From Verrucomicrobiales bacterium (GTDB lineage: Bacteria > Verrucomicrobiota > Verrucomicrobiia > Verrucomicrobiales > V1-33), in contig JAQGPJ010000105.1 in NCBI GenBank assembly GCA_028293125.1, forward strand, positions 124,001 to 188,000: a DNA stretch of 64,000 nt, given 5' to 3'. The notes beneath the pieces were generated by a model, which did no database searches, had not been told where the DNA came from, and saw only the letters and a list, made by a program, of their open reading frames with translations. A program made the position numbers and the translations under genes. Below, piece after piece: positions 4,868-20,392 of this stretch (positions are counted from its first letter, which is position 1; each line of letters opens with the position of its first letter).

Positions 4868-5434
4868 TCACCGGGCAAAAACCAAAGCGCGCCCCTCAGG
4901 GTCAAGTTCAGCCCAAGTGCCAGGAGCCAGATTGCCCAGACGGAACCCGCCGATGGCCGCACGGATAAGACGCAGGGTGGGATGGCCGATGGCGGCGGTC
5001 ATGCGGCGCACCTGACGGTTGCGGCCTTCGGTGAGGATCAGTTCCAGCCAGCAGTCCTCCACGTTTTTCCGAAAGCGCACCGGTGGCACACGCGGCGGAT
5101 AACCGGGATCTGCCTCCAGCCTCATAACGGTGCAGGGCAGCGTGGGCCGGCCATCCAGCGGCACTCCCTTCGCCAGTCGATGCAGCACCGCAGCCTCCGG
5201 CACGCGCTCGACCAGCACATGATAAGTGCGGGGATGCGCCTCACACGGATTCAGCAGGCGGTCCACCAGCACGCGCTCATTGGTCAGCAGCAGCAGCCCC
5301 TCGGAGTCCCGGTCCAGCCGCCCCAGGGGATACACCTCCTTCGGCAGCCCGAACTCCGCCAGCGTCCGCTGCCCCGGCAGCTCCGGGGTGAACTGGCTGA
5401 GCACATCCCAGGGCTTATTGAGGGCGATGAGCAT
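4868..5434 (-). CDS. rluE: RsuA/RluB/E/F-family 23S rRNA pseudouridine synthase (RluE-like)
   Basis: 188-residue cytoplasmic enzyme converting a specific uridine in 23S rRNA to pseudouridine. It starts directly with the catalytic domain (LIALNKPWDVLSQF) and has no N-terminal S4 RNA-binding domain, as in RluE. The catalytic aspartate is D41 in GRLDRDSEG. GRNRQVRRM near residue 140 is the second family signature. Length fits RluE (about 200 residues). The HMA gene follows 72 bases downstream on the same strand. The exact target uridine cannot be read from sequence. Confidence 0.88.
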   Translation of the reverse strand: MLIALNKPWDVLSQFTPELPGQRTLAEFGLPKEVYPLGRLDRDSEGLLLLTNERVLVDRLLNPCEAHPRTYHVLVERVPEAAVLHRLAKGVPLDGRPTLPCTVMRLEADPGYPPRVPPVRFRKNVEDCWLELILTEGRNRQVRRMTAAIGHPTLRLIRAAIGGFRLGNLAPGTWAELDPEGRALVFAR

Positions 5435-5455
5435 GGGGGTGGGGGAAGGGGGGAG

Positions 5456-5483
5456 TTATTGGTTATTGGTTATTGGTTATTGG
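5456..5483. repeat. Four tandem copies of TTATTGG after a G-rich run
   Basis: Four exact head-to-tail copies of the 7-mer TTATTGG lie between the RluE-like gene and obg, with G-rich tracts on both sides. A related G-run plus TTATTGGTTATT element occurs at 19387-19505, so this looks like a member of a dispersed intergenic repeat family. Confidence 0.85.
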
Positions 5484-5538
5484 GGGTGGGCTGGTGTGCA
5501 AAGGGACGTGGGGGGCTGGGGAATTTCCGACAGGGATT

Positions 5539-6753
5539 TTAGGATCCACTGAGAGGCTGGTCTGAACTGCCTTTGACCAGCACGCGCTGGTAGAGCTCCT
5601 TTTTCACGGCTTCAAGGCCTTGGCCGGTTTCAGCGGAGATGGGGAGGATTTTGACGCGGGGGAAGCGCTGTTTGAAATTTTTGAGATTCTCCGCAGCTTC
5701 CGGCAGGTCCATTTTGTTGGCGATGACCAGCCAGGGACGCTTGGCCAGCACGGGGTCGTAGAGGGAGATCTCCTGACGCAGAGTGGCCACGTCCTCGGAG
5801 GGATCGCGCACCTCCGTGCCCGCCATGTCCACCACAAACAGCAGCAGATGGCAGCGCAGAATGTGCCGCAGAAACTCAAAACCGAGTCCCACGTTTTCAT
5901 GGGCTCCCTCAATCAAGCCGGGGATGTCGGCCACGGTGACCCGCTTCCAGCTCTCGTATTCGATCACGCCCACCATGGGGTGCAGGGTGGTGAACCGGTA
6001 GGGCGCGACCTTCGGCTTGGCAGCGCTCAGCTTGCCCAGCAGGGAGCTTTTGCCGGCATTGGGGAATCCGACCAGCCCCGCATCGGCGATCTGGCGGAGC
6101 TCAAAATAGAACATGCCCTCCTCACCTTTCACACCCGGCGTGAACTCCGTCGGAGCCTGATGGGTGGAGGATTTGAAATGCACATTGCCCAGCCCGCCCT
6201 TGCCTCCTTTGCACAGGACGAACTCCTCCCCAACGTTCGTGAGGTCCGCCACCATCTCCAGTTCCACGCCCTCATCCAGACGCTGTTTCAGGGTGCGCTT
6301 GCGGCTGGCGGCCTCAGCGGCGGCATCCCCTTCACTGCCGGGTTCAAAGATATCGTTCTCATCGGCCAGCCACTCCTCCTCCTCCTCCGCGGCGGCGGGC
6401 TCCGCCGATGGCGGCAATTCGGCGGCATGGCCCTCCGCCCCCTCCGGCACCCAGGTGGTGTCCCGGTAAATCAGCGTGCCGGGTGGCACCGTGATGACCA
6501 GATCCGGAGCCGATTTCCCCGAACACTGCCGACCGGTGCCGTGACCGCCATCCTTGGCCCGGACCTTGGGATTGAAGAAAAAGGCCTTCAGGTTGCTGGT
6601 ATTGGCATCGACCCGGACAATGATGTCCGCGCCCTTGCCACCATCGCCGCCGTCCGGTCCGCCGTGGGGATTGAACTTGCCGCGGTAAAAGTGCGCGGAG
6701 CCATTGCCGCCATTGCCGGCGCGGGCGTGGATGCGGATATTGTCAACAAACAT
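5539..6753 (-). CDS. obgE: Obg-family GTPase
   Basis: Essential ribosome-associated GTPase of the 50S assembly and stress pathway, 404 residues. The glycine-rich OBG fold starts at MFVDNIRIHARAGNGGNG, so this ATG was chosen over an upstream in-frame start at 6906 that adds 51 low-complexity residues. G motifs: GFPNAGKSS (229-237), DIPG (276-279), NKMD (347-350), SAET (373-376). Odd feature: about 60 residues (about 99-160), very acidic at first (AAAEEEEEWLADEND) and then basic, are inserted in the OBG fold between GTLIYRDT and VADLTNVGEE. The variable TGS/OCT C-terminal domain is absent. It diverges from the cytochrome gene at 7036. Confidence 0.95.
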   Translation of the reverse strand: MFVDNIRIHARAGNGGNGSAHFYRGKFNPHGGPDGGDGGKGADIIVRVDANTSNLKAFFFNPKVRAKDGGHGTGRQCSGKSAPDLVITVPPGTLIYRDTTWVPEGAEGHAAELPPSAEPAAAEEEEEWLADENDIFEPGSEGDAAAEAASRKRTLKQRLDEGVELEMVADLTNVGEEFVLCKGGKGGLGNVHFKSSTHQAPTEFTPGVKGEEGMFYFELRQIADAGLVGFPNAGKSSLLGKLSAAKPKVAPYRFTTLHPMVGVIEYESWKRVTVADIPGLIEGAHENVGLGFEFLRHILRCHLLLFVVDMAGTEVRDPSEDVATLRQEISLYDPVLAKRPWLVIANKMDLPEAAENLKNFKQRFPRVKILPISAETGQGLEAVKKELYQRVLVKGSSDQPLSGS

Positions 6754-7035
6754 GGTGAAAAAGAAGCGTGAGGGAGGAGCAAAAAGCGGAGAGGGCAGGC
6801 TCCGGAGGAATCCGGCGGCCTGATCAATCACCCATCCGGTCACCCGGCCGGCCACGGAGAAGGGCGGAGGCGGGATGGGAAGGAACCCGTAAAATGGCCC
6901 ATCCATCCCCGGATGCCAGCGGAAACCGCTTTTTAAAGCTCCTGTTTCAGCCTCCGGCGGCTCATTTTCTCCATCTCACCCCGGCTTTCCGCCATTTGAG
7001 GGCAAAAAACCGGGCTTGGCGGCGTATGTCTCCTG

Positions 7036-10950: not shown

Positions 10951-11328
10951 CTATTTAACTTTAAATAATCCCGCACCCGCATCTTCCGAAATTATAAGAG
11001 TTTCACCGCTTATCCCTACAATTGCCCCTGAACAAACAATAGGTTCATTTAATTTTTTGCCACTGACCGGATCAATTACTTGCATCCACGGATTTACATC
11101 CAAACAGCTATATCCCATAGAATAAGATCCGTTGATTGATTTATCATAATTTAACGATTGCGCATGCATTGAAAATGTTGAATCTTTTTTAATATCCACT
11201 TCAACGATTACGCCGTCAAGAATCCCCCTGTATAAACCGCAGGCAGAGGACATGGTTAATGGCTTATCGCAAAATATTAAGAATATAAATAATATGCATA
11301 TAAATAATATTATAATATATTTTTTCAT
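10951..11328 (-). CDS. AT-rich small lipoprotein of unknown function
   Basis: 125 codons starting MKKYIIILFICILFIFLIFC. This is a basic start, a long hydrophobic core and a lipobox-like cysteine at residue 20 followed by DKP, so a lipid-anchored exported protein is likely. The mature part has patterned hydrophobic residues (GSYSMGYSCLDVNPW, IVGISGETLIISEDAG) and no family I recognise. Base use is strikingly AT-rich with AAA/ATA/AAT codons, against flanking genes near 65% GC. The stop is TAG. This composition points to recent transfer. Function unknown. Confidence 0.6.
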   Translation of the reverse strand: MKKYIIILFICILFIFLIFCDKPLTMSSACGLYRGILDGVIVEVDIKKDSTFSMHAQSLNYDKSINGSYSMGYSCLDVNPWMQVIDPVSGKKLNEPIVCSGAIVGISGETLIISEDAGAGLFKVK

Positions 11329-17415: not shown

Positions 17416-18241
17416 CCTTTTCCCGTTCCCAGCGGTTCGGCCGGCCATGGCCGCGCGGGCTGGAAACGATGTTCTGGACTTCACCGTCATTGACGAATCG
17501 CCGGACTGGATTGTCGTCAGCAAGCCCGCCCCGCTCCAGATCCACCCCTCCAAACCCGGCGGCCCTCCCACACTCTGGCACGGCCTGCGCGCCCTGCTGG
17601 CCTACGATCTGGCCAACGGAGCCGCGCTGTCCATCATCAACCGCCTGGACCGCGAGACCAGCGGCCTGGTGCTCATCGCCAAAAACGCCGCTGCTGCCCG
17701 CTGGTTCAACAAAGCCATGATGCGCCGCGAGGTCGGCAAGGAATACACCGCCTTGGTCCACGGCTGGCCAGAGATGGAGGAATGGACCGTGGACGCCCCC
17801 ATCCTCCGGCGCGGGGAGGTGGAGGATTCCCCGGTTTACCTGATGCAGGCGGTTCACCCGGACGGGGCTGCCTCCCGCACCCGCTTCCGTGTACTCCGGC
17901 GTGGGGAAAGGCCAGGCCCCGGCAGGCGCTTCGCGCTGGTGGCGGCGGTGCCGGAGACCGGGCGCATGCACCAGATCCGCGTGCATCTGGGACATTGCGG
18001 CCATCCGGTGGCGGGGGACAAACTTTATGGTCCAAGCCCGCAGTGGTATCTGCGCCAGATTGAAGAGGGCTGGACTCCCGCCGCCGCGGAGGCCCTGCTG
18101 CTGCCCCGTCACGCCCTGCACAGCACCCGGCTGGGCCTTGCCCTGCCCGATGGCGTATTTCAACAATGGGAATGCCCGGCTCCAGCGGCGTGGGAGGAAT
18201 TCCTCGGCCTGAAGAGCGGAGGGGATGCGGAATCCCGCTGA
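17393..18241 (+). CDS. RluA-family pseudouridine synthase
   Basis: 282-residue RNA-modifying enzyme. The catalytic block is NRLDRETSGLVLIAK, with the aspartate about 86 residues from this start. Most RluA/RluC/RluD members have HRLD; here Asn replaces His. A later signature is GRMHQIRVHLGHCGHPVAGD. There is no S4 domain, so it is closer to RluA/TruC-like members than RluC/D. A GGAG site five bases before the ATG at 17393 supports this start even though it overlaps the protease gene by 23 bases; 17447 is an alternative. The target RNA position cannot be told. Confidence 0.87.
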   Translation: MKPASPPDLFPFPAVRPAMAARAGNDVLDFTVIDESPDWIVVSKPAPLQIHPSKPGGPPTLWHGLRALLAYDLANGAALSIINRLDRETSGLVLIAKNAAAARWFNKAMMRREVGKEYTALVHGWPEMEEWTVDAPILRRGEVEDSPVYLMQAVHPDGAASRTRFRVLRRGERPGPGRRFALVAAVPETGRMHQIRVHLGHCGHPVAGDKLYGPSPQWYLRQIEEGWTPAAAEALLLPRHALHSTRLGLALPDGVFQQWECPAPAAWEEFLGLKSGGDAESR

Positions 18242-18386: not shown

Positions 18387-19379
<993 letters not shown>

Positions 19380-19386
19380 CGGGCAC

Positions 19387-19505
19387 GGGGGAGGGTTAAT
19401 AGTTATTGGTTATTAGTTATTTGGAATTGGCCTTTTAAAAACCTCTTTCCAAGAACCTTCTTTCCAGCCCGCCCCCATAATCAATAACTAATAACCCCCT
19501 CCCCA
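19387..19505. repeat. Inverted repeat of the G-run/TTATTGG family between moxR and DUF58 genes
   Basis: A perfect 14-base inverted repeat (GGTTATTAGTTATT at 19408-19421, AATAACTAATAACC at 19483-19496) is embedded in a wider imperfect pairing. In that pairing a GGGGAGGG-TTAATAGTTATTGG stretch mirrors the CAATAACTAATAACC-CCCTCCCC stretch on the right. The loop is about 60 bases. It lies wholly in the 131-base gap between two genes that normally form one operon. It resembles a miniature element rather than a classical terminator, since neither strand has a T run after the stem. Confidence 0.8.
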
Positions 19506-19510
19506 TCCCC

Positions 19511-20392
19511 ATGCCCGACCGTCTCACCGCCATTCTCAAGAAGGTGCGCAAAATCGAACTGGCCACGCGCGGCATTGTGCGGGCTGCGGTGGGCGGGGAA
19601 TATCACAGCGTGTTCAAGGGCCAGGGGATTGATTTCGATGACTTCCGGGAATACCAGCCGGGGGATGAGGTGCGGTCCATCGACTGGAACGTCACCGCGC
19701 GGATGGGCATGCCCTTCATCAAGAAATTCGTGGAGGAGCGGGAGCTCACGGTGTTTCTGGCGGTGGATGTCAGCGCCTCCAAGAACTTCGGCGGGCAGGA
19801 CCAGTCCAAGCGCGAGCTGGCGGCGGAGATCGCGGCCACCTTCGCCTTCAGCGCCATCCACAATCAGGATAAAGTCGGCCTGCTGCTGTTTGCGGAGGAG
19901 CCCGAGCTTTTCCTGGCTCCCCGCAAGGGCAGCACCCACTGCCTGCGCCTCATCCGGGAGATCCTTTACGCCCAGCCCAAAAGCAGCGGCACCAACATCT
20001 CCGCCGCTCTGGACCGGCTGACGCGGCATCTGCCCCGGCGCTGTCTGGTGCTGCTGATTTCAGATTTCATCGCGTCGGGATTCGAGCGCGCCCTGGGTGT
20101 GGCGGCGGTCCGGCACGATGTGGTCGCGGTGCAGATCACCGATCCCTCCGAGGAGGTGCTGCCGGAGGTGGGGTGGATGCGCTTCGAGGATCCCGAAACC
20201 GGAGAGCTGATGCAGATTCAAACCAGCAACCGCCGGGTGCGCGCCCTTTACCACCAGCGCCGCGCCGCTTGGCAGGCGCAGCTGGACCAGACTTTTAAAA
20301 ACGCCGCCGTGGATAAAATCGACCTCCGCACCGATTCCAACTACGTGCCCGCCCTTCACGCCTTTTTCAAGCGCCGCGCCGCCCGCCGGTGA
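19511..20392 (+). CDS. DUF58 domain protein (MoxR partner)
   Basis: 293 residues. The N-terminal half holds the DUF58 signature YQPGDEVRSIDWNVTARMG. A VWA-like domain follows with FLAVDVSASKNFG, a MIDAS-like DxSxS motif (predicted metal-ion adhesion site). No membrane segment is visible in this copy, unlike many DUF58 proteins. It is expected to work with the MoxR ATPase encoded just upstream. The 131-base gap filled by an inverted repeat may decouple expression of the two. Function in this lineage is not established. Confidence 0.9.
   Translation: MPDRLTAILKKVRKIELATRGIVRAAVGGEYHSVFKGQGIDFDDFREYQPGDEVRSIDWNVTARMGMPFIKKFVEERELTVFLAVDVSASKNFGGQDQSKRELAAEIAATFAFSAIHNQDKVGLLLFAEEPELFLAPRKGSTHCLRLIREILYAQPKSSGTNISAALDRLTRHLPRRCLVLLISDFIASGFERALGVAAVRHDVVAVQITDPSEEVLPEVGWMRFEDPETGELMQIQTSNRRVRALYHQRRAAWQAQLDQTFKNAAVDKIDLRTDSNYVPALHAFFKRRAARR

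Follow-up and report, generated by a model that had tools for sequence, protein, structure and literature searches.

The inverted repeat that separates a moxR-like gene from a DUF58 gene in this Verrucomicrobiales genome probably consists of two convergent arrays from a lineage-specific family of heptameric simple-sequence repeats, one anchored at each of the two gene borders. By sequence comparison, we could establish the anatomy of the element, its dispersal, its confinement to intergenic DNA, its proximity to gene borders, the inward polarity of its arrays and its presence or absence among congeners. The arrays look like a published, unexplained class of bacterial heptad repeats rather than a transposon. 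All positions below refer to the window, the whole stretch of 64,000 nucleotides that was analysed; the genome it belongs to (6.48 Mb) is denoted G000.

Between the TGA of moxR (19377-19379), for which an alternative in-frame start is possible at 18225, and the ATG of DUF58 lies a gap of 131 bp, whose parts are listed in Table 1. The initial annotation had described a 14-base perfect and a roughly 24-base imperfect inverted repeat at this place, and both were found: positions 19387-19503 form an imperfect inverted repeat with arms of 27 nt (19387-19413 and 19477-19503, 85% complementary) around a perfect core of 14 nt (19408-19421 and 19483-19496, 100%). The gap at 5440-5485, for which the same motif had been claimed in tandem together with a G-run, indeed contains such an array. 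It is situated between the minus-strand genes of a pseudouridine synthase (PF00849) and of a GTP1/OBG-type GTPase (5539-6906), and possesses one arm only, behind the G-run. Another gap of the window harbours an AT-rich imperfect tandem repeat with a period of about 15 (11272-11318).

Table 1. Features of the two array sites, in window coordinates
Feature	Start	End	Strand	Basis
Single-arm G-rich leader	5435	5454	+	Sequence, gene call, PF00849; abuts start of minus-strand pseudouridine synthase gene 4868-5434
Single heptad array (GTTATTG)4.1	5455	5483	+	Sequence, tandem repeat finder, gene call, profile matches
moxR-like AAA ATPase gene	18387	19379	+	ORF list, home-made gene caller, PF07726 (E 5.8e-62)
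Left-arm G-rich leader	19380	19394	+	Sequence; adjoins moxR stop codon directly
Left heptad array GTTAATA GTTATTG GTTATTA GTTATTT	19395	19422	+	Sequence, tandem repeat finder
Spacer (~52 bp)	19423	19474	.	BLAST of whole element against own genome, shuffle test
Right heptad array, minus strand GTTATTA GTTATTG ATTATGG	19475	19495	-	Sequence, inverted repeat
Right-arm leader, C-rich on plus strand	19496	19510	-	Sequence; directly before DUF58 ATG
DUF58 / VWA gene	19511	20392	+	PF01882 (E 2.2e-81)

Both sites are members of a family that is scattered over the genome. Allowing up to one mismatch, TTATTDGTTATT has seven matches in the window, compared to 0.02 expected, and none of 100 shuffles reached seven. 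As an exact 12-mer, it has 74 matches in the 6.48-Mb genome, which form 43 clusters, none of them in a called gene; the reversed pattern, which yielded 51 matches, is not an independent control for this count, because TTATTGGTTATT is identical when read backwards. A stricter 20-mer produced 19 matches. With 43 clusters and both window sites among them, it is therefore ruled out that no further copies exist and that the resemblance arose by chance, and the repeat family suggested in the initial annotation is borne out. Extension of the matches gave 53 arrays of 2-5 heptads each, in which the repeating unit is the arm, that is, a G-rich leader followed by 2-5 GTTATTR heptads, and not the pair of arms. 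The 30 nt on the outer, gene-facing side of the arrays consist of G to 57% and contain GGGG or GGGAGGG in 47 of 53 cases; the inner 30 nt reach 40% and 13 of 53. According to a motif scan, 17 of the 53 arms carry a G4 motif (G3), compared to 0.6% of 2400 control pieces from intergenic regions. The idea that G and C tracts are a general feature of gaps was rejected: among gaps between 80 and 600 bp long, taken from the window and a further 400 kb, a left G-run and a right C-run occur together in only 3 of 165, and the tracts therefore belong to the arrays. Independently of arrays, the 25 nt preceding start codons are generally C-rich and G-poor (C 0.36-0.40, G 0.19-0.22; window, C88 and C118). 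As regards carriage by phages, an exact 22-mer is found in 71 stretches of a viral collection of 2.9 million contigs and is rare there.

The placement of the arrays follows the borders of genes. None of the 53 arrays in G000, and none of 24 in the congener G004, lies within a called gene. In G000, the outer border is at most 45 nt away for 39 of 53 arrays, the inner border for 5 of 50, and the outer border is the nearer one in 39 of 50 arrays (p = 9e-5), with all borders taken from a home-made gene caller whose starts are probably wrong in some cases, in either direction. The borders used by the 50 arrays comprise 27 starts and 23 stops, and at both kinds alike the G-strand runs 5' to 3' away from the gene. 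Polarity is weaker for single-arm arrays alone, where the outer border is nearer in 21 of 30 (p = 0.043), or in 16 of 23 if contig C38 is left out (p = 0.093). An independent repeat of the analysis in G004, with 24 arrays derived from the loci of 30 of its 42 matches and from three more loci, gave an outer border within 45 nt for 19 of 22 arrays and an inner border for 6 of 22, the outer one being nearer in 17 of 22 (p = 0.017); GGGG is present within the outer 20 nt in 19 of the 24. In two genomes of other families (G056 and G020, five arrays each), a G-run was found in 0 of 10 arrays, and the outer border is nearer in four of four cases in G056, with G020 offering one usable case.

Facing arrays obey the same rule. 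When the best array per strand was taken in 43 regions of G000 and 21 of G004, all 19 facing pairs (13 and 6, respectively) pointed inward. By the strict 12-mer, arrays occupy both strands in 10 of 43 clusters and one strand only in the other 33. Pairs are far too frequent for independently placed arrays, an excess that is not accounted for by slippage alone. Arms from one locus resemble each other no more closely than arms from different loci do, both for the ten strict pairs (permutation p = 0.87) and for the relaxed set (p = 0.52, n = 19; G000 0.83; G004 0.12, six pairs). A matched hairpin kept by selection was rejected on these grounds, and the most fitting description of the inverted repeat is therefore a pair of facing arrays.

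A second heptad family in the same genome, GGGTTCA, shows a similar tendency. It has 41 matches in G000 (loci L149-L178), often behind a leader like AGAGGTTAAA. For 20 arrays obtained from 30 of the 41 matches, the outer border is within 45 nt in 11 and the inner one in 2 of 20; the outer border is nearer in 14 of 20, which is not significant by itself (p = 0.12). One of these arrays resides inside a called gene. Five facing pairs are visible among the loci listed, all of them inward, with the same strand polarity as in GTTATTR. The two families meet on contig C38, which makes up about 1.3% of the genome (82,230 bases), holds 8 of the 43 GTTATTR clusters and is also crowded with several GGGTTCA and GGACTGAGT-type repeats.

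Among relatives, the arrays are patchily distributed. Whole-genome searches returned 42 matches in the congener G004 and 13 in the congener G002 for the 20-mer, and no match in the congeners G003 and G001 and the family member G005, whose genomes are 89, 86 and 93% complete; more broadly, matches occur in 5 of 57 relatives and in 14 genomes of a phylum-level sample of 288, with the own genome counted in both. The moxR-DUF58 gap itself is 126 bp long in G004, where it contains facing arrays whose heptads differ in part and include GTTACTG; in G003, the stop of the orthologous moxR and the DUF58 start are separated by 5 bp. The G003 and G004 loci coincide in contig number and position with the public MAG contigs CANHIJ010000052.1 and CAMDJM010000067.1, respectively. 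A wider comparison of orthologous gaps over 400 kb each of G003 and G004 offered few usable pairs. With lengths of 131, 126 and 5 bp, the phrase of the initial annotation that the element splits a MoxR operon is fair. We examined nine moxR-DUF58 gaps in five genomes and found arrays in four, namely at the present locus (A) in G000 and G004, at C111 in G000 and at paralogue B in G004; the five array-free gaps are A in G003, C54 in G000, and B in G003, G001 and G005. In the moxR tree, G003 and G004 group together (support 90/92), and their relation is left unresolved by the DUF58 tree; for gap A, the arrays could thus have disappeared from G003 or arisen twice, in G000 and in G004. The array of paralogue B is more simply explained as gained in G004, with G001 covering 37% of the alignment columns.

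The initial annotation had proposed that the family might be a MITE or a REP-like sequence. A MITE would here be a non-autonomous transposon whose terminal inverted repeats are G-rich and which integrated between moxR and DUF58 and at other sites. Such an origin would be in keeping with the inverted arms, with the occupied and short versions of the orthologous gap (131 bp in G000, 126 bp in G004, 5 bp in G003) and with the patchy distribution among genomes. Some loci, moreover, have more than an arm in common. Besides the element itself, one match in G000 spans the spacer, that of C111 (72% over query positions 8-116, 108 nt), which is likewise located between a moxR and a DUF58 gene, both paralogous; a part at least as similar as the one shared by the spacers of C13 and C111 arose in 1 of 2000 shuffles. 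Arm and spacer are also common to L067 and L068 (75-77% over 80-95 nt) and to L059 and L072 (87% over 60-62 nt), so larger pieces were sometimes copied, and spacers are shared within subfamilies. A conserved full-length unit was, however, not encountered, as 62 of the 64 BLAST matches of the whole element to its own genome cover an arm only. Against a MITE we also count that 33 of 43 clusters have arrays on a single strand in the strict scan, that number and order of heptads differ between arms, with no matching within a locus, and that arms adjoin gene borders instead of random places in the gap. A target-site duplication, a feature to which the initial annotation had pointed, was not seen by eye in comparison with the 5-bp gap of G003, a single pair of sites from divergent genomes. 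We therefore regard a MITE as improbable. A spacer core common to the family was considered separately and rejected, since what the 53 arrays had in common by k-mers within their inner 70 nt was chiefly the facing array and a motif of the GGACTGAGT type.

Most improbable of all is an element of the REP/REPIN kind spread by a RAYT transposase. The arrays do share with REP/REPIN sequences and bacterial MITEs, as described in PMC3733652, that they are dispersed, extragenic and capable of forming hairpins, and they are short, palindromic and present in tens of copies. They differ, however, in being composed of tandem heptads, with no RAYT match, conserved full unit or visible target duplication. 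A search of G000 for transposases, confined to the Y1_Tnp/RAYT family (PF01797), returned no match at E <= 0.001, the control being positive in 5 of 14 known genomes. The GTAG/CGTC tags by which, according to the same paper, large REP families are defined (PMC3733652) are not visible in the arms either. The MITE or REP-like reading is thus not supported.

A different explanation is offered by function. The element could be an RNA under selection, either a hairpin or a leader with stops in three frames, that sets the translation of moxR-DUF58 or the decay of its mRNA. The predicted RNA fold of 19380-19512 is stable in this respect (z = -3.92; 1 of 200 shuffles folds as well), stops in all three frames are found in 40 of 53 C-strand arrays, and the four occupied moxR-DUF58 gaps among the nine are divided evenly, with two loci each in G000 and G004. 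In addition, the same ORF start has an array in G000 (L079) and in G004 (L302), with the rest of the gap differing. On the other hand, we found no site resembling an intrinsic terminator, that is, a GC-rich stem followed by a T run, on either strand of 19200-19700, no sigma-70-like site in this interval and no Rfam match anywhere in the window; nor do the arms of a locus match beyond the family consensus (p = 0.52). Polarity does not change from start to stop borders, so the two do not share an RNA sequence. No match is present in G003 and G001, and the border that has an array at L071 in G000 has none in G004. On balance, a selected RNA seems unlikely to us.

Several kinds of heptad repeats with comparable habits are known from other bacteria. 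The STRR sequences of heterocystous cyanobacteria are short tandem heptanucleotide repeats that are dispersed in intergenic DNA. The arrays described here resemble them in being dispersed, intergenic heptanucleotide tandems; their unit, GTTATTR, is a different one. In a literature search covering papers outside subscription, the matches listed contained nothing relevant on a GTTATTR unit or on heptamers in Verrucomicrobia. Close to our arrays are the heptameric repeats GGGAATC and GGGGA(C/T)T that Rehm et al. 2015 (PMC4692102) reported from Xanthomonas and Nostoc. As stated in that paper, the GGGAATC repeats are mostly intergenic, with the G-strand close to the ORF on its 5' side whatever the direction of that ORF, and they form convergent inverted pairs in Xanthomonas (70 cases in Xcc, 75 in Xac); G4 formation of GGGAATC-type heptads was demonstrated in vitro, and their function is left without explanation there (PMC4692102). 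With this type our arrays have in common a tandem 7-base unit in few copies that is dispersed (2-5 units, 53 arrays, 43 clusters), the intergenic placement (0 of 53 arrays in G000 and 0 of 24 in G004 within called genes), the border polarity (39 of 50 in G000, 17 of 22 in G004, 21 of 30 single arms) and the convergent pairs (19 of 19 inward). For the GTTATTR arms, a G4 potential is predicted from motifs (17 of 53 versus 0.6% of controls). On the basis of the position rule, the convergent pairs and the G4 motif, we therefore assign the arrays to this known kind of heptameric repeat. Compared with what that paper describes (PMC4692102), they differ in their GTTATTR unit with a separate, non-repeated G-rich leader, and in their occurrence in Verrucomicrobiota, at tens rather than hundreds of sites and absent from two congeners. 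Another comparable sequence, the TAACTGA direct repeat that MacGregor 2015 (PMC4679880) described from Beggiatoaceae and from some Cyanobacteria and Bacteroidetes, is closely similar in its heptad to the C-strand TAACYAA found here. In the BOGUAY genome, according to that study (PMC4679880), most TAACTGA sets face a nearby start codon, with one inverted repeat in 170 sets. The repeat is patchily distributed, and relatives have shorter versions of some gaps that lack it (PMC4679880). The patchiness and the shorter repeat-free gaps are shared with our arrays, which differ from TAACTGA as described there in using both starts and stops, in their common facing pairs and in their G-rich leader (PMC4679880).

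For the origin of convergent heptad arrays, which we favour as explanation, we envisage that arrays are seeded and then change in length as in other heptameric repeats, through slippage or local copying. Slippage alone does not account for the orientation of such arrays, away from the borders of genes, in unrelated bacteria. They would be tolerated outside genes only, and wherever both borders of a gap acquired one, an inverted repeat would result. In the moxR-DUF58 transcript, the pair would be expected from its sequence to form a hairpin, or else each arm would provide one G-quadruplex-prone strand. Relative to the 5 bp of G003, the array pair sets stop and start 131 bp apart, and the translational coupling between moxR and DUF58 should be weaker as a result. 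The element is likely to be inert or mildly regulatory.

A more speculative origin, to which we give little credence, is that arrays are scars of 3'-end extension by a telomerase-like, templated enzyme. An intergenic break would be followed by G-rich tailing, by the addition of heptads to both 3' ends and by rejoining, sometimes around captured DNA. If true, this would give arrays that begin G-rich, with the G-strand running away from both genes, that face each other within a gap and are not matched to one another, together with mostly unrelated spacers and switch-like presence among congeners. That a single genome has two unrelated heptads, GTTATTR and GGGTTCA, of equal polarity would likewise follow, as would the geometry of GGGAATC in Xanthomonas.

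Whatever their origin, heptads of different unit and equal polarity at gene borders occur in distant bacteria, as published for GGGAATC in Xanthomonas and as seen for GTTATTR here. In this genus, some species have dozens of copies and in others none were found, which should make it well suited to distinguish slippage, copying and enzymatic origin, and the junction seen with and without arrays (131 versus 5 bp) is a good place to examine effects on MoxR-DUF58 expression.

Between moxR and DUF58 paralogues, the gap L143 of G005, from another genus, contains a different inverted repeat, of the GGGCGTCTTGCCC / GGGCAAGATGCCC type. In the paralogue gap L144 of G004, a run of the related heptads CAAGAAC and CTAAGAA adjoins heptads of the form CAATAAC; even the unit thus differs from one array to another.
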